DNA of 44,961 bases from a virus, in IMG/VR virus record IMGVR_UViG_3300042450_001096, positions 1 to 44,961 of that record, one strand, 5' to 3'. The notes below the pieces were generated by a model. It was not told the DNA's origin, did not search any database, and saw nothing but the letters and a program-made list of their open reading frames with translations. Numbering within the stretch: position 1 is the first letter of the stretch; each line of letters opens with the position of its first letter. The translations under genes and the position numbers were made by a program. Shown piece after piece: positions 4,931 through 30,879 of this stretch.

Positions 4931-6508
4931 TTAAATTAAATATTCGTTAGAGGCGTTAGATAACTGCCCATAGTAAACTACTGAATCGTTATTAGGTAAT
5001 AATGGCTGTTGAATATTTATTTTATGTTTTTTCCATTCCCACATTTGGATAGCCCAGTACGGTTTATGTCCACGCGCGGCGGCAATTGCTTGAAAATCCT
5101 CCAACGAACGGGCGCGGGATATTTCTAATTTTTTTTCTTTTTTAAGTGAGCGAGCCATTTCGTCGGTAATTTCTACCAATTCACCGTCCTGTTTTTTTAC
5201 TTCTCGCGTTTTGGTTTCATAAACATGGCCGCAAATGGTCGGAAATGTATTTGGGCAAATCGGTTCTGGCTCGTGTATGTAATAACACGCTGGGCACTGA
5301 ACTGTTTTTGTTTTGGGAATTTTCTTCTCTAACAATTTTTTACTGTTTTTTACAGCACCGTCTAACGACCACGCTCTATCGTCCTTAGGTCTACCATGTC
5401 GCATGTAATTACCAACGTGGTCTAATATTATTGCAAATGGTTTAGGGCCGTTTTTAATTGCTAATAACCTCTGGGCGGCGGTTTCTATTGGATACCCATC
5501 GGCATGCATCGCTCGTAAAACTCGGCCAATTTGTTGAATGTGTAAACCTTCGGACGCTGTTGGGCGCAAACAGATGCCACAAACAACCTCTGGTAAATCG
5601 GTTCCCTCTGATATTAAATCGCAAGTAGTTAATACTTGGACGGTTTTGTCGGCTAACCCCGCTAATTTTCTATCTCTCTCGTTGTCCTTGTCTTTTCCGC
5701 TAACGGCCTCGCTAAGATAACCAGCGGCTCGAAATTGTTCGGCCACATGCTCGGCGTGTTCAATTGATATGCAAAATACAACACATGGAGCGCCAGCACA
5801 AATTTTAGTATAATGTGCAACGGCATCTCCTGTTATTGTCGGTTTATCGACTTTTGATAATACTTGGGCGCGGTCGTAGTCGCCTTGCACTATGTCTACG
5901 TCTGATAAATCTACGGGCGTCTCAGCGCCAAATAGACGGGCGGTTGTTAACCAACCCTCCTCCATTAATTCACTCATTTGAGGGCCGATTACCATATTTT
6001 CAAAATATCCGCCAGCATGTACACCGAGGCCAACGCCATCTCCACGGACAGCGGTGGCAGTAACTCCTAAAACTAACGCATTAGGGTAATGTTCGATAAT
6101 TTTACCAATTGTGTTGCCTTTTTTTGCGTGGTGACATTCGTCAATTATTATAAACCCAGGCTCTTGCAATTTATCCAACCTATTAATTATCGTTAATATG
6201 CTCGCAACTTGAATTCTCCTATTATATTGAGGCGTGTATCCACTGCCAATTATACCATGTTCCACACCAAATTTAAATAGAGATTTAGACGCTTGCGACA
6301 CTAACTCACGTTTATGGGCTAATATCCAAATAGTTTTAGAGGAGTTTGTTAAACTATAATTTTCCTCCACATTCATGGCAATATCGCAAAATGTCGCCGT
6401 TTTGCCTCCGCCAGTTGGCAGAACCGCTATAACTTTTTTACTGCCATTTTTAAACGCTTGCCTAACCTCATCTTTTAGTGTAAATTGATATGGGCGTAAT
6501 TTTATCAT
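4931..6508 (-). CDS. Superfamily 2 DEAD/DEAH-type helicase
   Basis: This 525-residue protein has the full set of SF2 motifs: Walker A LPTGGGKT (30-37), DECHH (123-127), GVTATAVRGDG as motif III, and QQIGRVLRA as motif VI. It resembles the phage branch of the XPB/RadD-like helicases. The C-terminal part has CPAC and two further Cys (VQCPACYYIHEPEPIC, then TICGH), a likely zinc ribbon. It probably remodels DNA during recombination-dependent replication. It is the last gene of the RecT operon, and its ATG overlaps the stop of the small HTH-like gene upstream. Confidence 0.9.
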   Translation of the reverse strand: MIKLRPYQFTLKDEVRQAFKNGSKKVIAVLPTGGGKTATFCDIAMNVEENYSLTNSSKTIWILAHKRELVSQASKSLFKFGVEHGIIGSGYTPQYNRRIQVASILTIINRLDKLQEPGFIIIDECHHAKKGNTIGKIIEHYPNALVLGVTATAVRGDGVGLGVHAGGYFENMVIGPQMSELMEEGWLTTARLFGAETPVDLSDVDIVQGDYDRAQVLSKVDKPTITGDAVAHYTKICAGAPCVVFCISIEHAEHVAEQFRAAGYLSEAVSGKDKDNERDRKLAGLADKTVQVLTTCDLISEGTDLPEVVCGICLRPTASEGLHIQQIGRVLRAMHADGYPIETAAQRLLAIKNGPKPFAIILDHVGNYMRHGRPKDDRAWSLDGAVKNSKKLLEKKIPKTKTVQCPACYYIHEPEPICPNTFPTICGHVYETKTREVKKQDGELVEITDEMARSLKKEKKLEISRARSLEDFQAIAAARGHKPYWAIQMWEWKKHKINIQQPLLPNNDSVVYYGQLSNASNEYLI

Positions 6509-11059: not shown

Positions 11060-11554
11060 ATGAGAAAATACCTCGCATTTATAATCGCTGTATTAGCGTT
11101 TTTTAACTATTTATTTATTGCCATTTTTCAACTAACAAAAGTTGGAGCCGTCAACCTCTGGAAATGGTTGCGTGTGTCTAGTAAGAATTTTCCAGAATTA
11201 GTTACTTTGCCTATTTGTATAGTTGCCCTGTTAACTTACCCATATTTACTCGAGTATAGTGGCGTAAATGCAATTTTTGAGTATTTTCATGCAGACCCAG
11301 ACAAACCAGACCGAAGTATAAAGGCATTTCAAGTTATACTATTATCTCTTATTTACGTATTTTTGGCCAACGCAGCGAGTTACGCAGCAATAAAATATAA
11401 TAGGAGAGATTTATGGGAATTATACACTCAAAAATTAGAATTAGAACAAAAAGATTTACACTCCGCTATAAAAGATTTACGCTTTTACTGGGCGTGTTAT
11501 TTTATTGGTGTTTTAGTTGCGGTCTACTTAGCGCACAGTCTCATCCTCGTTTAA
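11060..11554 (+). CDS. Four-segment membrane protein, candidate holin
   Basis: This 164-residue protein has four hydrophobic segments: about 3-24, 44-66, 90-112 and 140-164. A charged loop lies between the second and third, and a Lys/Glu-rich helix between the third and fourth. It is the first gene after the shared operator, and its end overlaps the signal-peptide part of the endolysin gene by 142 bases, so the two are co-expressed. Position suggests a holin or other lysis membrane protein. Four segments is more than most holins have, and no family motif is seen. Confidence 0.65.
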   Translation: MRKYLAFIIAVLAFFNYLFIAIFQLTKVGAVNLWKWLRVSSKNFPELVTLPICIVALLTYPYLLEYSGVNAIFEYFHADPDKPDRSIKAFQVILLSLIYVFLANAASYAAIKYNRRDLWELYTQKLELEQKDLHSAIKDLRFYWACYFIGVLVAVYLAHSLILV

Positions 11555-12090
11555 ATCCAAAATATAATACGTTTAATACCTATCCAGAATTTATAACAGG
11601 ACATGAACTCACGGAATTTTATATTAACCAGTGCCTCCTCTACCTTGGAACAACCGAAGAGCCAAAGGGCTCAAACTGGGGCGAGGATGTTAAAAATATG
11701 CTTGCGGCCGTTGGAGTTAATTTTGCGGCTCCTTGGTGCGCTGGTTATACGGGGATTACTAATCGTAATGCTTGTATTAATTACCCTTTTAGTGGTTTTG
11801 TGCCTAATTGGAGCCGTGGCGTTTGGCAGAAAAACGTCGTATTCGACAAAAGAAAGGCCCAGAGAACCGTTTTGCCGTCAGAAATTAGACGGGGAGACCA
11901 GTGTACTATTTACTTTTCTAATCTTAATCGCGATGCACACATTTTCGTCGTCCTTGGTGTTACGCAGAAAGGAAATCTCGTCACAATTGAAGGAAATACA
12001 AACGATGGGGGAAGTAGAGACGGGTACGGAGTATTTGTACGAGTAAGGGAATTGTGGCAAGTCAGTAAGGTTATAAGATTAATTAACTAA
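11413..12090 (+). CDS. Endolysin with Sec signal peptide (CHAP-like peptidase)
   Basis: This is a 225-residue protein. Residues 1-23 are basic and 24-42 form a hydrophobic core ending in LSAQ, a plausible signal peptidase site. The mature part resembles NlpC/P60-CHAP peptidases: Cys109 in PWCAGYTG, His176 in DAHIFVVL, and EGNTNDGG near 193-200 for the third catalytic position. It should cleave peptidoglycan. Only one ATG (11413) precedes the signal, so the signal peptide is coded inside the holin-like gene in another frame. Export by Sec would make lysis timing depend on more than the holin. Confidence 0.85.
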   Translation: MGIIHSKIRIRTKRFTLRYKRFTLLLGVLFYWCFSCGLLSAQSHPRLNPKYNTFNTYPEFITGHELTEFYINQCLLYLGTTEEPKGSNWGEDVKNMLAAVGVNFAAPWCAGYTGITNRNACINYPFSGFVPNWSRGVWQKNVVFDKRKAQRTVLPSEIRRGDQCTIYFSNLNRDAHIFVVLGVTQKGNLVTIEGNTNDGGSRDGYGVFVRVRELWQVSKVIRLIN

Positions 12091-12107: not shown

Positions 12108-12698
12108 ATGAAAAACGCACACTTAGACGTTAAAAACGTATTATTAACGGCAATTTTAACGTTAATTGCAATTGTAGCATTTACACAACCATGTTTACAA
12201 AAATGCGTAAACGATGGGGGTGGGTTTAGCGCCCAAAACCTTGCAACTGGAGCATTATTTACAGTACCTCAACACACAATAGTCTGGAACCAAGGTACGT
12301 TCCAAAACGCGTTTACAGGACAAGGCACAAATACAATTACTTGGGCTAGTATTTCGTCGGTTGCGGGTAATTTTACGGGCTCTTACACGGTTACAAACGT
12401 GGTATCTGGTTGCGATACTACGATTACATTTTGCGTCGATGTTATACTACCAACTCCTCCAACGTTAGATTTAACCGATATTTGTTTTTCTAACGCTACG
12501 GGTGTTCCAATTGGCGTAGGTGTTCCCGCTGGCGGAGTTTACACCGATGGCCTTGGAAACGTTATAACGCAAATAACGCCATCTATGGTCGGGCAAACAA
12601 TAACGTATACGACAGCGGGTGCTAATGGGTGCAGCGGGTCAGTTACTGACGTAGTAATCGGTTTGCCTTTGCCTAACGGTGGGATTTTAGGGTTTTAG
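12108..12698 (+). CDS. Exported PKD-like surface protein
   Basis: This 196-residue protein has an N-terminal hydrophobic stretch (about 10-26) ending near AFTQ, a likely signal peptide. After it come CLQKC and a beta-rich region with NTITW and SGCDTTITFCVDV. That style is typical of the PKD/Ig-like repeats in Bacteroidota gliding and T9SS surface proteins. A second beta region follows, and the chain ends in GGILGF. The protein at 14166 also ends in a Gly-rich stretch closing with IGF. The gene follows the endolysin by 17 bases. A role at the host surface is inferred, and the exact function is unknown. Confidence 0.6.
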   Translation: MKNAHLDVKNVLLTAILTLIAIVAFTQPCLQKCVNDGGGFSAQNLATGALFTVPQHTIVWNQGTFQNAFTGQGTNTITWASISSVAGNFTGSYTVTNVVSGCDTTITFCVDVILPTPPTLDLTDICFSNATGVPIGVGVPAGGVYTDGLGNVITQITPSMVGQTITYTTAGANGCSGSVTDVVIGLPLPNGGILGF

Positions 12699-13070: not shown

Positions 13071-13250
13071 ATGCCACACCAAACAATCACATTTAGACCG
13101 AGCAAGGAGAATAAAACTCTCCTTGCTCGTCTTGCGATACTTGCAAAGCAAGACAATCGCAAGTTAAACAATTACATTGAAACGGTATTATTGGCGCACG
13201 TAAATAGCGCCGCAAGCAAACCCCTAAAAACAAATAATTATGCAGTTTGA
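13071..13250 (+). CDS. Ribbon-helix-helix-like protein (59 aa)
   Basis: The frame starts at ATG 13071, one base after the stop of the preceding gene, and overlaps the methyltransferase start by 11 bases. The beginning HQTITFRPSKEN gives the strand, and two helices follow (KTLLARLAILAKQ and LNNYIETVLLAHV). This is the pattern of CopG/Arc regulators, with Leu-Asn-Asn-Tyr at the usual start of the second helix. It probably binds DNA. Its coding DNA contains two strong inverted repeats, possibly its own operator. Confidence 0.6.
   Translation: MPHQTITFRPSKENKTLLARLAILAKQDNRKLNNYIETVLLAHVNSAASKPLKTNNYAV
13099..13163. repeat. Two strong hairpins inside a coding region
   Basis: CGAGCAAGGAGA (13099-13110) pairs perfectly with TCTCCTTGCTCG (13118-13129) around seven bases. 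Directly after, CTTGCGAT (13131-13138) pairs with ATCGCAAG (13156-13163), enclosing a smaller CTTGC-AAA-GCAAG hairpin (13140-13152). Both lie within the ribbon-helix-helix-like gene. Such dense perfect symmetry is unusual inside coding DNA and suggests a DNA or RNA control site. Confidence 0.7.
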
Positions 13251-14169
13251 CTTATTTGGTAATCTCGTAGAAAAAGACGAGTTACTACGCGATAAATTTA
13301 TCGAGCCACCGTTTAGCATACTAGACACAAAGAGCGGCAATTGGCAAAAAAGAAAACGCCTTTGGATTCGCAAAGGGTTAAAAAGCGAAGTTGGAAGAGA
13401 GGTAAAAGGTCAAAAAGGTACTGGTCAAAAAAACACAATCAGAATAAATAGTCAAAAATATGAAGATGGCTTTTATACTAAAGAAGATGTGTCAAAAGAT
13501 TTATACATATCTGTTTTTGACCCAGCACTTTGCGAAGTATTATATCATTGGTTTTGCCCCCCAAATGGAACAATATTAGACCCATTTGCGGGCGGTTCGG
13601 TTCGTGGTATAGTTGCTAACTATTTAGGATATAAATACACGGGTATTGACATAAGACAAGAGCAAGTGGATAGTAATAGAGAACAAGCAATAAATATACT
13701 TGCTTTGAATAATCAGCCACAATGGTATGTTGGAGATTCTAATGAGATTTTAAAAGATTATGATAATAAACACCCATTTTTTAATTGTGCCGAGATGTTT
13801 GATATGATTTTTACTTGTCCACCGTATGCCGATTTAGAGGTTTATAGCGACTTAGAAGGAGATATTAGCAATAAGCCTTATGATGTATTTTTATCGCTTT
13901 ATGAAAGCATAATTGAAAAGAGTTGCAAACTTTAAAAAAAAGGAGGATATGCTTGTTTTGTAGTCGGTGAAGTTCGAGATAAAAATGGTAATTACATTGG
14001 CTTCGTTCCAGATACTATAAGAGCATTTCAAAAATGTGGAATGCAATATTATAATGAAGCTATTTTATTGAATGCCGTAGCAAGCGCAAGCATGAGAGCA
14101 AATGGCAATATGAAAAGTCAAAAACTAGTAAAAATTCATCAAAATATTTTAGTTTTTAAAAAGCCATGA
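13240..14169 (+). pseudogene. DNA methyltransferase interrupted by an in-frame TAA
   Basis: The first part (231 codons) has the SAM-binding motif DPFAGGSVRG, the sequence GIDIRQEQ and the catalytic TCPPYAD, as in phage N4/N6-type DNA methyltransferases. A TAA at 13933-13935 stops it after SCKL. The same frame then continues for 77 codons with the family's expected C-terminus (KKGGYACFVVGEVRD, later KIHQNILVFKK) and stops at 14169. A single T-to-A change of TTA to TAA would explain it. The complete protein would be about 309 residues. The short product lacks the C-terminal core strands and is probably inactive unless the stop is read through. Confidence 0.85.
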
Positions 14170-15464
14170 AAACCCTCCTCTTTGTTTTATTCCCTTGTTT
14201 GTTAACTGCCCAAAACCAAAACTGGACGTTTGGTAGAAATTTGAAATTTACGGCCCCAGGAACGTCTAACACTAGCGCTATTAATCATAACGAGGGTACG
14301 TCGTGTTTTAGTGACGCTAGCGGCCAAATTATGGCATATAGCGACGGTATTAATGTCTATGACAGAAACGACGTTATTATGCCAAATGGAGCGGGTTTAA
14401 CGGGCACGAATTCGACGGCTCAGTCGGCGCTTATTGTCGCACAACCGAACACCCCAAATATTTTATATGTTTTTACCTTGAATAACTCTGGTTTAGGCCC
14501 ATTATATTACTCGGTTGTTGATATGACACTAAACGCTGGGCTCGGCGCTGTTACGGCCGCTAAAAACGTCGTCCTTAACGCAGCGTTTAATATGCGAGAA
14601 TGCTTGTCGGCGGTTACTACATGCTCAGAGGACACGGTTTGGGTCGTTACAAAACGATGGCAATCGGCTAATTTTTACTCTTACCCATTAACGGCGACGG
14701 GTGTCGGTTCGGCGGTAATTTCGAGCGCGGGTTACGCTGGAGGAGTAACGGCGCAAGACCCTATAGGTACTCTTACGTTTCACCCAGATGGCAATCGATT
14801 GTCTGTTACTTATTACGGAAATGGACGCGTAGAAACGTATAGATTTAACAAACAAACAGGAGCCGTTCAGTTGTTAAACACTTATTTTTTTGGCGGAGTG
14901 TATGATAGTAAATGGGCTGAAAATTTATTATACATATTTCCAAATTCTGGTCAAATAAGCCAGTTAAACGTTTGCACTGGCGCGTCGGTTGTTATTGGTA
15001 ATACTCCAGAGGTCGTTGCTGCAATTGGAACTGGTTGGTATGCAAACGACGGCCGAATTTATATTTCTAGGGGAATCAATTCATTTTTAGCGCGTATAAA
15101 TAACCCGCTAGTCGCTGGCGTTGGTTGTGGTTTTGTGGCGAACGCTGTCGTTTTACCTCGTAATCCAATGTTTGGTCTCCAAAACATCTCTATGCCATAC
15201 ACTAGACCCGCGATGTTACCATTTACTTATACATCAAGTTGCGGTTTGGCTGCGTTAGCTTCTACCCCCCGTACATGTTTCGAGCCATGCATTTATCGGT
15301 GGAGCGGAACGTTTGGCTCGGTTGTGGGTCTAAATGCGACGGTAAATCTACCAAATGGAACGCACTCGGTGACCTTGGAACGGGTGTGCGACTGCGAGAC
15401 AACCTCCAGAGTGCAAACCGTTGTAATTAGCGGAGGGTTATTGGCTAGTGTAATAGGTTTCTAA
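14166..15464 (+). CDS. Exported beta-propeller protein, T9SS-adhesin N-terminal type
   Basis: This 432-residue protein has a short signal peptide (MKTLLFVLFPCLLTAQ). It continues with WTFGRNLKF, HNEGTSCFSDASGQIMAYSD, YDRNDVIMPNG and YYSVVDMTLNAGLGAV. This is the repeat style of the propeller that opens many Bacteroidota gliding and T9SS type B proteins. In the host proteins, PKD repeats and a sorting domain follow. Here the chain ends with a Cys-rich PKD-like part and SVIGF, without a sorting domain. The ATG overlaps the methyltransferase stop (ATGA). Likely acts outside the host cell; target unknown. Confidence 0.7.
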   Translation: MKTLLFVLFPCLLTAQNQNWTFGRNLKFTAPGTSNTSAINHNEGTSCFSDASGQIMAYSDGINVYDRNDVIMPNGAGLTGTNSTAQSALIVAQPNTPNILYVFTLNNSGLGPLYYSVVDMTLNAGLGAVTAAKNVVLNAAFNMRECLSAVTTCSEDTVWVVTKRWQSANFYSYPLTATGVGSAVISSAGYAGGVTAQDPIGTLTFHPDGNRLSVTYYGNGRVETYRFNKQTGAVQLLNTYFFGGVYDSKWAENLLYIFPNSGQISQLNVCTGASVVIGNTPEVVAAIGTGWYANDGRIYISRGINSFLARINNPLVAGVGCGFVANAVVLPRNPMFGLQNISMPYTRPAMLPFTYTSSCGLAALASTPRTCFEPCIYRWSGTFGSVVGLNATVNLPNGTHSVTLERVCDCETTSRVQTVVISGGLLASVIGF

Positions 15465-15544: not shown

Positions 15545-16297
15545 ATGGCACAAGCAATCGGATTCGCAAACAAATTTTATACTCTATGGAGTATTGACAC
15601 AGAGTCTGTTTACACTACTGACTCTCACGGTAACCACTGGTTAACTGGGTACAACACCAAATTTCATTACCACAAGAACATTTCTATCGATTTAGAAAAG
15701 GCAAAATCATTACATCCAGATTTAGATGTTATGGAAGATTTAAGAGGCAAAACCAGTTCTTGGACATCTGATAATAAAGAGGATTTATGCCCTCAAATTA
15801 TGAAATTTGGTAAGTACTGGGGACATAACCTAGACGAGTTAGTCATTTCCGATTTTCAATATGTAATTTGGATTTGCGAGAATCGTGGCGGCACTAAAAA
15901 TGGCTTATATGCGAGCGAGTTACCAGCAGTTGTAGCACATTACAAAGCGATTGACGATGCTACTCACAAAAAATTAAACGCTATAAGAAATATATTTAAC
16001 TCAATAGTTAGTGCGGGTAGTTATGAGTTTGTTGCTGAACGCAATTTGAGAATAAACGACAGTTTTGCAACTATGCAAGTTAATGTATCTGAGGAGTTCA
16101 ATACCTACGTTACTTTTGTATTTCCGAATGGTTCTTTTACTGAAAACTATTACAATGGGTTTACTTACGGTTTGCCGCTAGTTAAAGGCAAGGCAAAGAG
16201 GATTAAAGGCAAAACTATTGAGTTGTCGTTTATAAAGGAGGAATCAGACGAGGAGTGGGAGGTTCGTTTAATTGTAACTAGTATAACAATCAAATAA
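15545..16297 (+). CDS. Unknown protein with FGKY (ExoX C-terminal-like) motif
   Basis: This 250-residue soluble protein is not assigned as a whole. Residues 87-111 (KFGKYWGHNLDELVISDFQYVIW in outline) match the FGKYxG motif of ExoX-C/DUF3820-like domains, as at 4692 and 16853. The N-terminus is aromatic-rich and the last 90 residues are beta-rich (KGKAKRIKGKTIELSFIK), possibly an OB-like fold. It has its own class II promoter and a strong terminator, so it is a one-gene unit. The architecture resembles the gene at 16853, suggesting ancient duplication. A nucleic acid-related role is inferred. Confidence 0.65.
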   Translation: MAQAIGFANKFYTLWSIDTESVYTTDSHGNHWLTGYNTKFHYHKNISIDLEKAKSLHPDLDVMEDLRGKTSSWTSDNKEDLCPQIMKFGKYWGHNLDELVISDFQYVIWICENRGGTKNGLYASELPAVVAHYKAIDDATHKKLNAIRNIFNSIVSAGSYEFVAERNLRINDSFATMQVNVSEEFNTYVTFVFPNGSFTENYYNGFTYGLPLVKGKAKRIKGKTIELSFIKEESDEEWEVRLIVTSITIK

Positions 16298-16852: not shown

Positions 16853-17644
16853 ATGAATTCAGCAACTAGAACACAAAAAAATTACTCAGACGAAACGTTA
16901 ACGCGTATCGAGGATTTATTTACAAAAGGTAACGAGCGTAAGTCTTGGAATATGGGATACTATATCATAGACACTACTGGCGACTACCAAGTATATTTTA
17001 CGCTATATAGATTTAAAAAGTCAGAGAGCGTTTACGTTAATCCGTATAAGTACATTAAAAACATTACATCAGATTTCTCCAAGTTGGAGGATATGGTTAA
17101 TAAATTTAATTCTCAGCCTATCCCTGTTATATTAGTAGGACATGATAATTTTTCTCCGAAAGTTTCTGAGTTTAGAAATAGAAAAAATACCTTAAATCCA
17201 TTTGTTAAATTTGGAAAATATATGGGCAAAACTATTGAGGAAATTTGGGCTATGGATAAAAATTATGTGTTATGGTTTGCTAAAAATTTTGACCCAAAAG
17301 ACAACGCTAATAACATCGAATTGTCAAACCAAGCAAACGAGTTTAAAAATTTGTTTTTTACTGAGTTAGCCGATAAAAACCGCGCTGTTGACACATCTAA
17401 TTACGTGGGTAAGATTAAAGAAAGAGTAACTCTAGACGCTAAAGTTACTAGCATAAAAACTAGTGAGGATTATTCGGTAATTAATTTAGTTACTAAAGAC
17501 GGAGACAACATTTATGTTTACGATAAGGAATACGGTTTAACCGTAGGAGACTCAGTTAATATTATCGGAACCGCTACAAAGCACGTTGAGAAACTTGGCA
17601 AGAAATACACGTATTTAAACAGAATTTACATTAACAAATTATAA
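16853..17644 (+). CDS. FGKY-motif protein with C-terminal OB-like domain
   Basis: This is a 263-residue protein. Residues 119-142 (KFGKYMGKTIEEIWAMDKNYVLW in outline) carry the ExoX-C/DUF3820-like motif. The final 75 residues (KERVTLDAKVTSIKTSEDYSVINL, then VGDSVNIIGTATKH) have the strand and glycine pattern of an OB fold, as in nucleic-acid binding proteins. It is followed after one base by the small GRGGK-type gene, so they form an operon with the next two genes. The role is probably in DNA or RNA metabolism; the enzyme activity, if any, is unknown. Confidence 0.65.
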   Translation: MNSATRTQKNYSDETLTRIEDLFTKGNERKSWNMGYYIIDTTGDYQVYFTLYRFKKSESVYVNPYKYIKNITSDFSKLEDMVNKFNSQPIPVILVGHDNFSPKVSEFRNRKNTLNPFVKFGKYMGKTIEEIWAMDKNYVLWFAKNFDPKDNANNIELSNQANEFKNLFFTELADKNRAVDTSNYVGKIKERVTLDAKVTSIKTSEDYSVINLVTKDGDNIYVYDKEYGLTVGDSVNIIGTATKHVEKLGKKYTYLNRIYINKL

Positions 17645-18060: not shown

Positions 18061-18579
18061 ATGAAACTACTGGCTGTTTTGTTACTACCTCTTAAACTAT
18101 TCGGACAGTTTACCTATTGCGGAACAGACACGGTAATAAATCTCACAACTCAATCTGGGTTAATTTACGAGTGGAATGTGGATGGGTTTTTAAGTACAAA
18201 CCAAGACGCGCAACTTACAATAAATAGAACAGGAGCGTTTTTTGTCGAATTGACCGTACAAGACGCCAACGGTTGCGTTAACTCCGATAAAAAGGTGTTA
18301 GAGGTTGCCGAATGCAAAGAATGGACGTATTACGCTCCTAATGCGTTTTCGCCAAATGGCATTAATAAAACGTGGACTCCCGTCGGTGAAAATATTACTA
18401 TTGATTTAATACGAATATTTACTCGAGAGGGCCAAGTTATATTCGAGGGCATTGGTGTTTGGGATGGCAAATATTTAAACCGAGAGTGTATGGGCGGCGT
18501 ATATGTTTATACATGCGATTATACAACCGTATTCGGAACAAAATTACGAGACTTAGGGCGCGTTACATTAGTGCGTTAA
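18061..18579 (+). CDS. Exported protein with T9SS type B (CHU_C) sorting domain
   Basis: This is a 172-residue protein. Residues 1-16 form a signal peptide (MKLLAVLLLPLKLFGQ). Residues about 20-85 are an Ig/PKD-like domain (IYEWNVDGF, ELTVQDANGCVNSD). Residues about 92-172 match the gliding motility-associated C-terminal domain: YAPNAFSPNG, IRIFTREGQVIFEG, VWDGKYLN, GGVYVYTCDY and the final GRVTLVR. In Bacteroidota this domain directs proteins through T9SS after Sec export. The phage protein should therefore leave the host through T9SS and sit on or outside the cell. It is much shorter than most host proteins with this domain. Confidence 0.88.
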   Translation: MKLLAVLLLPLKLFGQFTYCGTDTVINLTTQSGLIYEWNVDGFLSTNQDAQLTINRTGAFFVELTVQDANGCVNSDKKVLEVAECKEWTYYAPNAFSPNGINKTWTPVGENITIDLIRIFTREGQVIFEGIGVWDGKYLNRECMGGVYVYTCDYTTVFGTKLRDLGRVTLVR

Positions 18580-18770
18580 ATACCCTTTTTTCGCTTAGTA
18601 TTTTTTTGTTTTCGCACCCATTCAACTAATTTTAAACATGCAAAAAACATTGCAATGGTTGCGGCAAAAAACTGAAATATTACCGTTGCCTCATGCAGAA
18701 ATGAAAGCAAAAAACTAATAAACATTATTACCCAACCAGTTACCCCAGTGCCTTCGTTATTTTGTTCCAT
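18576..18770 (-). CDS. Small two-segment membrane protein, candidate holin
   Basis: This 64-residue protein has two hydrophobic segments (about 12-31 and 33-54) and a very basic tail (RKQKNTKRKKG). Size, topology and charge are those of class II holins. It follows the tail fibre gene by 9 bases at the end of the structural run, a common holin position. It would be a second lysis membrane protein besides the one at 11060; which of the two is the true holin cannot be told from sequence. Its end overlaps the convergent T9SS-domain gene by 4 bases. Confidence 0.65.
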   Translation of the reverse strand: MEQNNEGTGVTGWVIMFISFLLSFLHEATVIFQFFAATIAMFFACLKLVEWVRKQKNTKRKKGI

Positions 18771-18779
18771 TGTAAAATA

Positions 18780-20480
18780 TTATCTAAAACTAGTTTCGTA
18801 TGAATATGTAATCATTGTGGGAACATTTGTTAACCCAGTTCCAGCGCCAACCATGTAAGCCTTATTATTGTGTATTACAATTGGATATAATGTAGAGGTA
18901 TCTGGTTCTGTACCTAAGAAAAAACTACCTGTACCAACTATACCTCTTCCATTTATTGCTGTATTAGGTATAGCTAAAGGTTGAAACCAACCATTTTGAC
19001 CAGCAACAACTAAACTAAAATCGACAAATACTTTTAAATATACTGTAACAATATTTCCATTAATTTTAAAAAATAATTCATCAAATCTTGCGCCTGTAAT
19101 ATAAGTTCCGTCCACAGTTAAAGCAGTAACAATACCACCCATAATACTATTGTTACCTTGTAATTGTACCCAAACCGCCGCTGTTGTACTAGCGTCAATG
19201 CATCTATATTCAATAGATGTATTATAATCTTGAACAATAAAACCAACTTGATAACCTAATGACTCATCTTGTGACGCTCCTGGTATTCCATTAAACGTTG
19301 AATATGGCGGTATTTGCACCATTGTAAATGCCGTAATTCCTAAATCTGTCTCTGCTTGAATTATTGAGGCGTTTCTTTCAACTGCTACTAGTTTTGTTAG
19401 AGCCGTGCAATCTTGAAGAAAACCAACACCTGTTGTAAGTTCTCCATAAAAAAAAACGGATGTTAAAGATGTACAATCTCTTAAAAATGTACCTGTTACA
19501 TTAACATTTCCTAAAAATGAAACAGATGTTAATAAACTTAAACTTGAAAATAAAGAAGAATTTCCTGTAATATTTCCTAAAAAAGAAAGAGTCGTTATAT
19601 ATATGCAACTTAATAAAAATTCGTCTCCAGTTGTTACATCAAAATCACATTTAAAACTTGTAACCTCTGTATTATTTGCTAGAAATGCATCCCCAAAATT
19701 ATCCAACCCATAAACCTCTATTCTAATTACTCCATTACTTAAATCAAAATTTATAACATTTAAGTTAGGATTAGTTATAGGGTCAAATGCGGCTATAAAT
19801 GCCGCTTTATCCGCTAATATTCCAGTAGGTGTTAATGTGTTTACTCCTATAAAAAGATTGTAGTTAGGTATAGTAACAATTGCCCAAATAGCGTCTCCAC
19901 TATTAGCTTGAGTGCATATATAAGTTACTCCTGTAACAAGATTAAATAATCTTGAGCCAACTTTCCAACCAATATCCTCGTCGTAATTACTATCTGGAAT
20001 AACATCGTTCATTGACATGCAATATACGTTATCTCCTATAGTTGGATAAAAATACAAGAATCCGTCTTCCCACTGCAATTCTTTATCATTCGCGCATACT
20101 TGTGATATTCCTCCCCCGTATCCATACGCTCTTGTTCCTTCACGAATTTTTGAACTATTAGCTAAAACAACCGCATCCCCGTTTGAAATATTTATATCGT
20201 TACCGTCTGTTGTATTACCTAATACTAACGTTTCCGCTAACGTGCCAGCACCACTTGCTGGTAAATCGTCTATCGTTGCAAATGGGTTAGTTTCCGACGG
20301 CGCGTTTGCATTTTGCACCGCTGCCAATTCATTAGAATTTAATTGTCCTCCAGATGACGGTATCTCGTCAACTCGCATTTTTTTAGTTACTCCATTTTGA
20401 GAAACTGGAAATACCTCAGCACCAGATAATGGTAAATTTACTGGGTCTAAATTTGGAATACTTGAGTCTTGTTCTGCCAT
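18780..20480 (-). CDS. Tail fibre with leucine-rich repeats
   Basis: This 566-residue protein opens with a phage fibre-type N-terminus (LPLSGAEVFPVSQNGVTKKMRVDEI in outline). Two middle parts share SxxYxxxxGxxVGSR-like and QDESLGYQVGF motifs for a repeated small domain. Between them lie at least three BspA-like leucine-rich repeats of about 24 residues (for example FLRDCTSLTSVFFYGELTTG, then FLQDCTALTKL). A C-terminal beta region with PNTAINGRGIVGTGSFFLG resembles fibre tips. It probably binds the host receptor. The repeat region looks poorer in CG dinucleotides than its neighbours, consistent with exchange of the binding part. Confidence 0.75.
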   Translation of the reverse strand: MAEQDSSIPNLDPVNLPLSGAEVFPVSQNGVTKKMRVDEIPSSGGQLNSNELAAVQNANAPSETNPFATIDDLPASGAGTLAETLVLGNTTDGNDINISNGDAVVLANSSKIREGTRAYGYGGGISQVCANDKELQWEDGFLYFYPTIGDNVYCMSMNDVIPDSNYDEDIGWKVGSRLFNLVTGVTYICTQANSGDAIWAIVTIPNYNLFIGVNTLTPTGILADKAAFIAAFDPITNPNLNVINFDLSNGVIRIEVYGLDNFGDAFLANNTEVTSFKCDFDVTTGDEFLLSCIYITTLSFLGNITGNSSLFSSLSLLTSVSFLGNVNVTGTFLRDCTSLTSVFFYGELTTGVGFLQDCTALTKLVAVERNASIIQAETDLGITAFTMVQIPPYSTFNGIPGASQDESLGYQVGFIVQDYNTSIEYRCIDASTTAAVWVQLQGNNSIMGGIVTALTVDGTYITGARFDELFFKINGNIVTVYLKVFVDFSLVVAGQNGWFQPLAIPNTAINGRGIVGTGSFFLGTEPDTSTLYPIVIHNNKAYMVGAGTGLTNVPTMITYSYETSFR

Positions 20481-27374: not shown

Positions 27375-28121
27375 ATGGAAAACAAAGTATTTGGAATCGC
27401 GTTGGAACCTTCGCGCATTACTGAACAATCTAGAATTTTGGCAAAACAAGTTAGAATCGCAGTGCTGATTCCAGACCGAGGCGACCGTCCTAATTTTACA
27501 AACAATTGTCTAAAATTAATTAATGAACAAACTTTATACCCTGTTAAAGTTTTTCATGTAAATGAGCCTCCGCAATCACAGCGAGCGGATATTACATATC
27601 GTTATAGAATAGGTTATAATTTATTGTCAAACTTAGCCAATGTTGACCTAATTGCATTTATTGAGAATGACGATTATTACGCGCCAAACTATCTAGAAAC
27701 CATGGCGGCTCATTGGATTGAGCAAGGTAGACCCGAGATGCTAGGCACTTGCTATTCTTGGTATTACCATATTGGTTTATTAAAATACACTAAACTAGAA
27801 CACTATTCGCGCTCTGCTGCAATGAATACTTTTATCGTACCTAATTTAAAAATTAAATGGTGCGCTGATTCTGAGCCATACACAGACATGCATTTGTGGG
27901 CTAATTGCCCAGAAATAAAAAAGGTAATTGTAAACCCAGAAAAAATAATTTCAATTGGAATTAAACATGGAGTTGGAAAATGTGGAGGAGGGTCGCACGT
28001 TGATAGGTTAAACAAATACCAATACAACGACTCATTAATGGAATGGCTATTTTCAAATGTTGAGTATTCGTTTCATGATTTTTATGTAAATTTATATGGC
28101 ATATTACAAAGTAAATATTGA
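27375..28121 (+). CDS. GT-A glycosyltransferase-like protein
   Basis: This 248-residue protein starts with a nucleotide-sugar binding type strand (VRIAVLIPDRGDRP). It continues LINEQTLYPVKVFHVNEPP and has an acidic motif in LIAFIENDDYYAPNYLE, the DxD-like site of family 2 (GT-A) transferases. Later DMHLWANCPEIKK and GIKHGVGKCGGG suit the acceptor side. No membrane segment is present. It is the first of five glycan genes, and its end overlaps the second by 26 bases. The substrate could be host surface glycan or the virion. Confidence 0.75.
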   Translation: MENKVFGIALEPSRITEQSRILAKQVRIAVLIPDRGDRPNFTNNCLKLINEQTLYPVKVFHVNEPPQSQRADITYRYRIGYNLLSNLANVDLIAFIENDDYYAPNYLETMAAHWIEQGRPEMLGTCYSWYYHIGLLKYTKLEHYSRSAAMNTFIVPNLKIKWCADSEPYTDMHLWANCPEIKKVIVNPEKIISIGIKHGVGKCGGGSHVDRLNKYQYNDSLMEWLFSNVEYSFHDFYVNLYGILQSKY

Positions 28122-28959
28122 ATCGCTTTCTGGGCGGTTTGGAAAAACATTTAAAAGCGGAGATACTGTTACCGATTTTGATTTTCAGCCTAATACTGTT
28201 CAAGTATTATTATTTAAAGGTTTTATAACTACTATGGAAACGCCTCGCGCGTACGGAGCGCCGCCACCAATTGATAAAAAAAACGGCCTTAAAATATATC
28301 AAATTTATTACGAGGAAAATCAGTTTAATAAATTAAATTATACGCCATATTTAAACGACAACTGTACTAAATATTTTGAGTCGCAAGTAATGGTAGATTT
28401 AATTAATGCTGGAGCCCACAATGATTATAGTTATTTTGGTGTTGTATCGCATAAATTACGCGAAAAATTATCGTTTGCTAAAACCTATTCAATTGTAAAT
28501 ATCGCTAATCGTTCGGTTAATGAATTTACGCCAGAAATGTTTGAGTTTGAATTATGGAACCAATTACCAGACGCATTTAGTTTTCAGCGCCATTTACCTC
28601 ACGACCCTATTTTATTTGCAGATAAATTTCACAGTAATTTTTCTGATTATTTTAAAAAAATAATGAACGAAATTGGATATAGTTGGACGCCGACATTATT
28701 TGATAATGTTTTTTATTGTAATTATTTTGTGGCGCGTTCAGAAATTTATGAACATTTTGTAAAAACAATGTTAGAGCCAGCGATTGAAATAATGGAACAA
28801 ATGCCAGAATTACTAAAAAACTCTGGCTATCCAAAAAAACTGCCGTTAAATTTACTAAGAAAATGGGGTTTTGATTATTATCCGTACCACGCATTTTTAT
28901 GCGAGCGAATGTTTTCGTATTATGCACACCTAAATAAATTAAGATGTTTGCACTATTAA
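28096..28959 (+). CDS. Glycan enzyme with phage-type N-terminal domain
   Basis: This 287-residue protein has two parts. Residues 1-48 (YYKVNIESLSGRFGKTFKSGD, then LLFKGFI) match in layout the N-terminal domain of the head-region protein at 22128. The rest (LKIYQIYYEENQFNKLNYTPYLND in outline, YSYFGVVSHKLREKL, LPHDPILFA, and a DNVFYCNYFVAR segment) resembles glycosyltransferase-like proteins found in polysaccharide gene clusters. The join suggests an enzyme tethered to a phage component. It overlaps both neighbouring genes, so it is translated with the cluster. The enzyme class is uncertain. Confidence 0.6.
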   Translation: MAYYKVNIESLSGRFGKTFKSGDTVTDFDFQPNTVQVLLFKGFITTMETPRAYGAPPPIDKKNGLKIYQIYYEENQFNKLNYTPYLNDNCTKYFESQVMVDLINAGAHNDYSYFGVVSHKLREKLSFAKTYSIVNIANRSVNEFTPEMFEFELWNQLPDAFSFQRHLPHDPILFADKFHSNFSDYFKKIMNEIGYSWTPTLFDNVFYCNYFVARSEIYEHFVKTMLEPAIEIMEQMPELLKNSGYPKKLPLNLLRKWGFDYYPYHAFLCERMFSYYAHLNKLRCLHY

Positions 28960-29531
28960 CTAGCTGCTCCCGCTACGATTTATTAAAACAAACTGTTGAC
29001 TCGTTGTTTGAAAATCAAACACACAATTTATCGCTGTTAATTAATGAGGATTCAACAGGAACGGTTAGCGAGGAGCGTGCTGTAATTAAATACAGCAAAG
29101 GTCTTGGGCAACATTTGGCAATTGAATCTGTAATTAAACATTTTGACGATAAATATTACCTCCATTTAGAGGACGACTGGTTTTTTAAAAATACTTACAA
29201 TTGGATTGCTAAGTCTGTTGAAATATTAAAAAACAACCCGCATATTATAAAAGTAATTTGTCGATTTGATTATGAACACCCATGCGAATTTAACGCCGAT
29301 GGGTGGGGTATATTGGAGCCGTGGAATGACCCGTGGAAGGGACACGAATGGTTTGGTTTTGGGTGGAACCCAGGGGTTACGAGATTAGATATTTTAAAAC
29401 AATTTGCGCCTTTTCCAGCAACTGAGCAAAAGTTATCAAAACAAATTTACGACGCTGGCTACAGGACGGCTCTTTTAGAACATGGCGTTTGTATTCATAT
29501 CGGAGGCGACCGCTCAACACATGAAATATGA
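28944..29531 (+). CDS. Glycosyltransferase (GT-A, short)
   Basis: This 195-residue protein starts FALLTSCSRYDLLKQTVDSLFENQ, the usual opening of family 2 transferases. It has YYLHLEDDWFF as the DxD-like metal site, then WFGFGWNPGVTRLDILKQF for acceptor binding and a final CIHIGGDRSTHE. It looks complete for the short type. It overlaps its neighbours by 16 and 4 bases. Donor and acceptor cannot be inferred. Confidence 0.75.
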   Translation: MFALLTSCSRYDLLKQTVDSLFENQTHNLSLLINEDSTGTVSEERAVIKYSKGLGQHLAIESVIKHFDDKYYLHLEDDWFFKNTYNWIAKSVEILKNNPHIIKVICRFDYEHPCEFNADGWGILEPWNDPWKGHEWFGFGWNPGVTRLDILKQFAPFPATEQKLSKQIYDAGYRTALLEHGVCIHIGGDRSTHEI

Positions 29532-30214
29532 AAATACATCTATATTTTATAAATTTTAACGATAGTTATTATTTGCCTTTTATCGCTAAACATTACGCGT
29601 TTTGTGAGCGAATAATTATGTTTGATAATTACTCAACAGACCACTCGGTTAATTTAGCTAAAAAATTAGGTTTTGAAATTCGGTATTTTGGTAAACAAGG
29701 AGAATTAAACGACCAACATTATTTAGATGTAAAAAACAACTGTTGGAAAGAATCGCGAGGGCACGCAGACTACGTTATTGTATGCGACGCTGACGAGTTT
29801 ATATGGGGAGATTACACTAGGTTAACTTGTTCGTTACCTAAGTCAGAGGGTTTTAATATGATTTCGGAAAAATTACCATTTGAACATATTACAGAAATTA
29901 AAACAGGAGCGCCAGATAAGTCATATTCAAAACAGATTATGTTTTGTCCTAATCGAATTAGTGAAATAAATTACGTTCATGGTTGCCATGTAAATAATGC
30001 CGTTGGGTTAATTACATCTAACGAAACTATGCAAATGCTACACTATCGAATGGTTGGAGGAGTTTATCGTATTATAAACAGACATCGAATTTACTTGCAG
30101 AGGATGTCTCAATTTAATCATAAACATAATATGGGCCACCACTATAAACACTCGGACGCGGCAAAACGTGAGGAGTGGAACTCGTTAATTTCAGCGGCTA
30201 AAATTGTTATATGA
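29528..30214 (+). CDS. Glycosyltransferase family 2-like with DADEF motif
   Basis: This 228-residue protein resembles the glycosyltransferase 2-4 type: YFINFNDSYYLPFIAKHYAFCERIIMFDNYSTDHS in outline, followed by YVIVCDADEFIWG, where DADE is the metal site. Later HGCHVNNAVG and LHYRMVGG follow the family pattern. It is probably soluble. The start overlaps the previous stop by 4 bases, and the next gene overlaps by 4 as well, so the whole set is one operon. Confidence 0.8.
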   Translation: MKIHLYFINFNDSYYLPFIAKHYAFCERIIMFDNYSTDHSVNLAKKLGFEIRYFGKQGELNDQHYLDVKNNCWKESRGHADYVIVCDADEFIWGDYTRLTCSLPKSEGFNMISEKLPFEHITEIKTGAPDKSYSKQIMFCPNRISEINYVHGCHVNNAVGLITSNETMQMLHYRMVGGVYRIINRHRIYLQRMSQFNHKHNMGHHYKHSDAAKREEWNSLISAAKIVI

Positions 30215-30879
30215 AAATAGAAATTAATCAACATGCTGGGCTCGGCGACATTCTTTTTTTAGAGCCAATTTTGAGAAAACTAGCAAAAAATAACGAGGTA
30301 ATTATGCCCGTTGTTGAGCCGTGGTTATGGCAAAAACATATCCCTTATGTAAATTTTACTAATTTTACTTTTCAGTTTGATGGGCGCGAGCAGAAATTTA
30401 CCTCAGATTATTACCCATTTAGATACGCTAACCCCATTTACAGAGGCTACGATTTAAACGACTGGCACGATTTTGAAAACTGTATGTTAGATAAATACCG
30501 CGTTCTTGAATTACCATTGGACATGTGGTTAGGTTTATCTGTAGTTCGCGACTATGAAAACGAGGCTAGATTAATTAAACTATTAAACTTACCAGAGAAA
30601 TTTATTCTAGTAAACGAATACTCGCGCGTTGGCGTAACACACATAAAATTAGAGGGCAACACACCTATTATTTACATGCGTCCTGTCGAAGGTTTTTCGG
30701 TTATAGACTGGTGTGGAGTTATGGAATTGGCGGTAGAAAACCACCACGTATCGACATCAACTTTTTACCTTTTGCACATGTTAGGTCTGGATGCGAAAAT
30801 TTACCCAAGGCCAGACGGTGACGGATTAAAAGGTATATCTCAATTATTGCCTATGACTCGGTTAGTGGGGCAAAAATAA
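30211..30879 (+). CDS. GT-B (heptosyltransferase-like) protein
   Basis: This 222-residue protein begins with INQHAGLGDILFLEPILRKLAKN, the opening of ADP-heptose transferase-like (family 9, GT-B) enzymes with the Gly-Asp motif. The C-terminal part (VIDWCGVMELAVENHHVSTSTFYLLHML) looks like the donor half, reduced in length. It is shorter than typical family members, so it may be a minimal or degraded enzyme. It ends the five-gene glycan operon; the next gene has its own promoter. Confidence 0.7.
   Translation: MKIEINQHAGLGDILFLEPILRKLAKNNEVIMPVVEPWLWQKHIPYVNFTNFTFQFDGREQKFTSDYYPFRYANPIYRGYDLNDWHDFENCMLDKYRVLELPLDMWLGLSVVRDYENEARLIKLLNLPEKFILVNEYSRVGVTHIKLEGNTPIIYMRPVEGFSVIDWCGVMELAVENHHVSTSTFYLLHMLGLDAKIYPRPDGDGLKGISQLLPMTRLVGQK

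Follow-up and report, generated by a model that had tools for sequence, protein, structure and literature searches.

The open reading frame at positions 18061 to 18579 on the + strand of the window, i.e., the whole 44,961-base virus contig analyzed here, encodes a protein of 172 aa (open reading frame list and translation) that, judged from its sequence, is phage-encoded and built of a signal peptide, one Ig/PKD domain, and a complete type B sorting domain (CHU_C) of the type IX secretion system (T9SS). Its gene appears to be one part of a three-gene unit that looks new and comprises a head, a spacer, and this CHU_C anchor, each with its own predicted signal peptide. In our view it is rather probable that the protein anchors a type B T9SS surface complex of three parts that the phage itself encodes; this complex would be produced late, exported by the host T9SS, and assembled by strand donation, and its displayed head would alter the cell surface. 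The first-pass annotation described the gene by itself; rather than a lone cargo, its product would be the anchor of a unit with the genes at 12108–12698 and 14166–15464.

The signal peptide MKLLAVLLLPLKLFGQ (18061–18108, + strand) is of the classical Bacteroidota type by sequence and was assigned with a simple heuristic rather than SignalP. It is followed by an Ig/PKD-like domain (18118–18315, + strand), which is recognized by PKD_4 of Pfam (E = 3e-4, residues 32–79) and by strands in the AlphaFold model, and, at the extreme C-terminus, by the sorting domain (residues 92–172; 18334–18576, + strand). The latter is matched by PF13585 (CHU_C) of Pfam with E = 7.1e-6 and 26.5 bits (cut-off 27) across residues 92–155 and by TIGR04131 of NCBIfam with E = 1.7e-4 and 21.7 bits (cut-off 35). 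Both matches are significant, yet lie under the curated cut-offs; the CHU_C matches of anchors from other lineages exceed the Pfam cut-off. Because our own profile from 11 host CHU_C tails covers the full domain length (positions 2–89 of 89, E = 1.5e-14), we consider the sorting domain of the anchor divergent but complete, and in the AlphaFold model its pLDDT is mostly 86–91 from residue 111 onward. A C-terminal type B sorting domain behind a signal peptide and one Ig-like domain had been proposed in advance, with a search by these two HMMs as the check, and this architecture was thus recovered, though with HMM scores below the curated cut-offs. The nearest solved-structure sequence to the anchor profile A5 is the C-terminus of Aureispira GhpA (PDB 9flp, E = 2.4e-21), a CHU_C-type end like that of the anchor, but on a bacterial rather than phage chain of 5,898 aa. 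Fold searches with the anchor returned mostly generic Ig- or cadherin-like matches, among which only the named viral entries and PorU were informative: In BFVD, two proteins from uncultured Caudovirales, with 187 and 199 aa, bear the name 'Gliding motility-associated, C-terminal domain'. With T9SS type B cargo as in SprB–SprF or PG1035–PorP (TIGR04131/PF13585), the anchor shares the Sec-type signal peptide, the Ig/PKD domains, and the complete CHU_C C-terminus. Whereas the usual type B cargo is one protein of many hundred to thousands of residues, the anchor has 172 aa within a three-gene split, is phage-encoded, and has no carrier gene nearby.

The contig carries genes for tail sheath, terminase, and tape measure as well as, by family profiles, a lambda-type portal and a ClpP-like head protease, in agreement with the phage origin assumed at the outset. 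Amid its – strand structural genes lie five + strand genes (27375–30879), some of them glycosyltransferase-like by eye. Relatives of the anchor occur in seven IMG/VR contigs (60–66% identity) and retain the signal peptide, Cys20, Cys72, and Cys85 as well as the sequence blocks APNAF, WDG, GGVYxY, and GRVTLVR; all matches are metagenomic records, and none was found among phage records with a stated host. The dN/dS values among these relatives range from 0.04 to 0.20 where calculable, pairs involving the window anchor itself being saturated at synonymous sites; by this estimate, the anchor gene is under purifying selection. The host-type domains and a sorting-domain match below curated cut-offs would also suit a captured fragment of a host gene, or misassigned host DNA, that has no function in the phage. 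This is extremely improbable and largely refuted by conservation: The gene sits in the same place in the seven relatives and is under purifying selection, mini anchors form 12 lineages, and the contigs bear phage structural genes, including a circular genome of 38,451 bp.

The two partners of the anchor are encoded upstream on the + strand. The spacer (alpha; 12108–12698, 196 aa) starts with a signal peptide or membrane segment, continues with two Ig-like domains, and ends in the tail PNGGILGF; its relatives are 74–84% identical. It was not reached by our first spacer profile; homology to the spacers of other phages comes instead from pairwise comparison (BLASTP with the L161 spacer, 2e-13) and profile–profile comparison (96.7%, E = 3.6e-10). 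The head (beta; 14166–15464, 432 aa) consists of a signal peptide, an NWxFG-type domain, and a C-terminal Ig-like part that ends in the tail GGLLASVIGF. Its relatives share 66–79% identity and conserve the C-terminal GG.LA..IGF; Pfam yielded no match for the protein, and its structure model was poor (mean pLDDT 35.6) and left out of the analysis. Within the unit of the window, the CHU_C sorting domain is found in the anchor only, not in head or spacer. The three genes are spread over 6.5 kb and are not adjacent. A DNA methylase gene (13240–13935; PF01555, E = 1.8e-9) lies between those of spacer and head, and two genes between head and anchor (15545–16297 and 16853–17644) each encode a motif at the C-terminus that resembles exodeoxyribonuclease X (PF20600, E = 0.0017 and 1e-7). 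Ahead of the spacer are genes for a membrane protein (11060–11554, + strand) and the endolysin next to it (11413–12090, + strand; phrog_21357, E = 5.8e-6). Behind the anchor, a small membrane protein of 64 aa (18576–18770, – strand; conserved in L002, L003, and L007) separates it from a convergent tail-fibre-like gene (18780–20480, – strand), so named only from its position and because its N-terminus resembles that of the counterpart in other unit-bearing phages. In L002 (5337–6044) and L003 (2637–3407), an extra signal-peptide gene overlaps the end of the anchor gene; its product ends in YDLAGRLIR, which might be a shortened type A sorting domain, an idea that no family match supported.

The circular genome mentioned above (G001, with L021/L022) derives from a contig of 38,574 bases whose terminal repeat spans 123 bases, and it carries a relative of the anchor. 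Most of its genes for structure and replication have no relation to those of the window; common to both are the membrane protein (58% identical), the endolysin (67% identical), counterparts of the genes at 12108, 14166, and 18061, and a portion of the fibre-like protein, along with a distant match to the window gene at 4931–6508. Since two otherwise mostly unrelated phages share them, the unit and the lysis genes seem to travel as a group among distinct phages.

When DNA was scanned for the canonical CHU_C motif, 29 viral contigs were identified, many of which encode small proteins of about 166–196 aa with signal peptide, Ig domain, and CHU_C domain; for three host genomes, the listed CHU_C proteins mostly comprise several hundred to thousands of residues. 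Beside these mini anchors, which represent 12 lineages at 50% identity from uncultured phages, signal-peptide proteins are encoded, one with two Ig-like domains (the spacer) and one of variable kind (the head), and heads differ between lineages. When only spacers served as queries, relatives of them were recovered at 79 viral loci. The spacer pattern stems from phages in which anchors had already been recognized, so that the number of lineages is a lower bound and the frequency of adjacency is biased: In 29 of 29 loci with separate spacer and anchor genes the two overlap or abut (gap –73 to +2 nt), and where a separate spacer has no anchor beside it, the locus runs out at or close to a contig edge. 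In 43 loci the unit is fused into one open reading frame of 637–820 aa in the order head–spacer–anchor, and in T4-like phages the position behind the tail-tube gene is taken by either a split (L185–L192, L198) or a fused form. The fused form is also present in the 634,780-base phage record LR745206 (L169), and several large phage records (among G057, G059, G061, G062, and G065) hold two CHU_C proteins each. In the viral contig L150 (2228–4105 and 1383–2231), a 625 aa signal-peptide protein with the metalloprotease-like motif HELGHYLTLYHTF and a C-terminus that resembles a type A sorting domain is encoded by the side of endolysin and CHU_C genes.

The comparison of split and fused forms suggests how the parts may be joined. 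A C-terminal tail of the form I.H[NDYF] is present in 32 of 35 spacers, in all 29 heads (selected by signal peptide and position only), in none of the 34 anchors, and in 7 of 584 background open reading frames, which by position look like further heads. The window lineage lies outside this form and ends in GGILGF (spacer) and ASVIGF (head), both conserved in relatives. In the fused proteins, the tail aligns with the segment 'NPxPxLxxI' and with the opening strand of the Ig domain that follows; the mature N-terminus of the split anchor aligns just past this segment, where the fused proteins run on into the Ig domain. The strands predicted for the anchor by AlphaFold with moderate confidence comprise residues 24–27, 35–40, 43–45, 51–54, 58–67, and 73–82, and none precedes residue 24. 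As the first of them begins just after the mature N-terminus, strand A of the anchor Ig domain seems to be missing. The proposed donor strands are NGGILGF of the spacer (12675–12695, + strand), based on the split/fused junction alignment and kept in relatives, and GGLLASVIGF of the head (15432–15461, + strand), based on conservation in relatives and the similarity between spacer and head tails. Within one phage this similarity gives a permutation p of 0.0003–0.0015, mostly from two divergent lineages, without which it is weak (p = 0.015–0.12). Taken together, the junction looks as a strand-donation joint would, and both the alignment and the predicted strands fit. An unlikely alternative is that the tails are short sorting signals, not docking strands, which take spacer and head, both devoid of a sorting domain, to the destination of the anchor. 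For this, one can adduce that heads of quite different kinds share the IxH[NDYF] end and that the CHU_C-bearing anchor never has it; that the tail aligns with the opening strand of the following Ig domain in fused proteins speaks against it, and the strict form of the tail is rare in hosts. In 42 genomes it gave 22 matches versus 17 for the control, and in 395 genomes 7 versus about 3, with none of the 7 ending an open reading frame of at least 60 aa. The tail motif is not supported as a general host signal.

Whether the unit belongs outside the cell or on the virion is addressed by its export signals and genomic context. Signal peptides were assigned by the same heuristic to 34 of 34 anchors, 34 of 35 spacers, and 41 of 43 fused proteins, compared with 54 of 584 background open reading frames, and cysteines number 22 in the 800 aa of the unit, against 32 in the roughly 5,600 aa of the structural proteins. 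It appears quite improbable that the unit is a virion part, e.g., a tail adhesin, with merely incidental signal-peptide-like starts. Both tail sheath and tube genes do lie beside it in 44 of 79 loci, the window unit faces a tail-fibre-like gene and is itself close to the endolysin, and Ig domains are common on virions. However, nearly all members carry Sec-type signal peptides, separately on each of the three proteins, the unit is cysteine-rich, and the T9SS domain is kept complete under purifying selection; moreover, the unit elsewhere adjoins unrelated genes such as Hsp20 or thymidylate-synthase-like ones and also occurs in phages with unrelated structural genes. Routing via the host T9SS, as first suggested for the anchor, is retained as the best reading of its sequence.

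Type B cargo usually comes with a dedicated carrier, whose gene is usually close by, although this is not defining. PF11751 (the PorP/SprF carrier) was not detected in 25 viral records including the window, many of these contigs being fragments; two host genomes contain 10 (9 over the family cut-off or near it) and 7. Type B cargo needs PorP-like carriers and stays bound to them, and a shared carrier can serve orphan cargo (PMC9143113, PMC12618676); since none was found in the phage records, the phage would depend on a carrier of the host. Furthermore, five conserved motifs (A–E) of the type B domain are needed for secretion, and when type B cargo is overproduced, its carriers become limiting (PMC12618676). 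In 2 of 42 host genomes of one order, IFHN-tailed proteins are followed by a CHU_C protein of 332 aa with spacer-like domains and then by PorP/SprF (G041:C7, similarly G047:C128; L302:7371–12378 and L303:7711–10239), a locus that might be a cellular counterpart of the phage unit. As in the phage unit, tail-bearing signal-peptide proteins lie directly by a CHU_C protein; unlike it, the locus is cellular, its spacer-like domains are fused to the anchor, and a PorP/SprF gene follows.

From these findings we propose the following course of events. The three proteins would be made late in infection, as suggested by the endolysin adjoining their genes in the window and in the contigs L165 and L150, and by the tail genes beside them in T4-like phages. 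Head, spacer, and anchor would be exported to the periplasm and there may join non-covalently in this order from head through spacer to anchor, each Ig domain that lacks its first strand receiving it from the C-terminal tail of the protein before it. The anchor would then carry the complex out through the SprA translocon of the host and hold it on the cell surface via a PorP/SprF-like carrier, presumed to be that of the host because no such gene was found in the phages. In the weakest step of this scheme, the displayed head would change the surface of the infected cell, most likely such that progeny or rival phages are kept from adsorbing to it. Superinfection exclusion as the purpose is a guess, and PADLOC returned no defence-system match. 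Adhesion, gliding interference, and release are together at least as likely. That T9SS export is right and the role is a different one, i.e., a change in adhesion or aggregation, a gliding block through competition for SprF-like carriers, or an aid to release, deserves slightly less than even credence: Heads vary between lineages, the endolysin is adjacent in the three contigs named above, carriers limit overproduced type B cargo (PMC12618676), and the receptors of Flavobacterium phages are presumed to belong to the gliding machinery (PMC7345892).

The view that no phage system of this kind had been described does not hold, as phage T9SS cargo as such is already known, both from type A proteins reported in 2020 and from the similar 187–199 aa proteins in databases (BFVD). 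For Cryophage, Bellas et al. described three T9SS cargo proteins of type A and proposed superinfection exclusion (PMC7468147). Those, too, are phage genes for proteins routed through the host T9SS; they are variable genes, and their type A domains are carried by enzymes and by a PA14 protein, whereas the unit described here is of type B, has no recognized enzyme domain, and is conserved in three parts. T9SS sorting domains in Bacteroidota phages, as here, are likewise mentioned for crAss-BACON phages (cluster 2), whose proteins near the head genes contain BACON repeats; the parts of that report available to us do not describe a three-part unit (PMC6949934). For the three-part unit, its fused and split forms, and the tails, our searches of an open-access library yielded no description. 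More tentatively, and with rather more doubt than confidence, we suggest that many unrelated Bacteroidota phages may share an undescribed split surface fibre in which heads can be exchanged, the spacer is conserved, and a mini type B protein serves as anchor; its parts would be joined by C-terminal strand donation after the natural split of a T9SS protein, and the fibre would be displayed late in infection via the host T9SS to control adsorption.

In the papers that we found, the use of the T9SS by phages has been noted only in passing and mainly for single type A cargo genes. A widespread conserved unit that also occurs fused in the same slot makes it testable whether phages routinely remodel the Bacteroidota surface via the T9SS, and raises the question of what the head proteins bind. 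Moreover, a very small natural type B cargo of about 170–190 aa would be useful for studies of secretion and carrier recognition.
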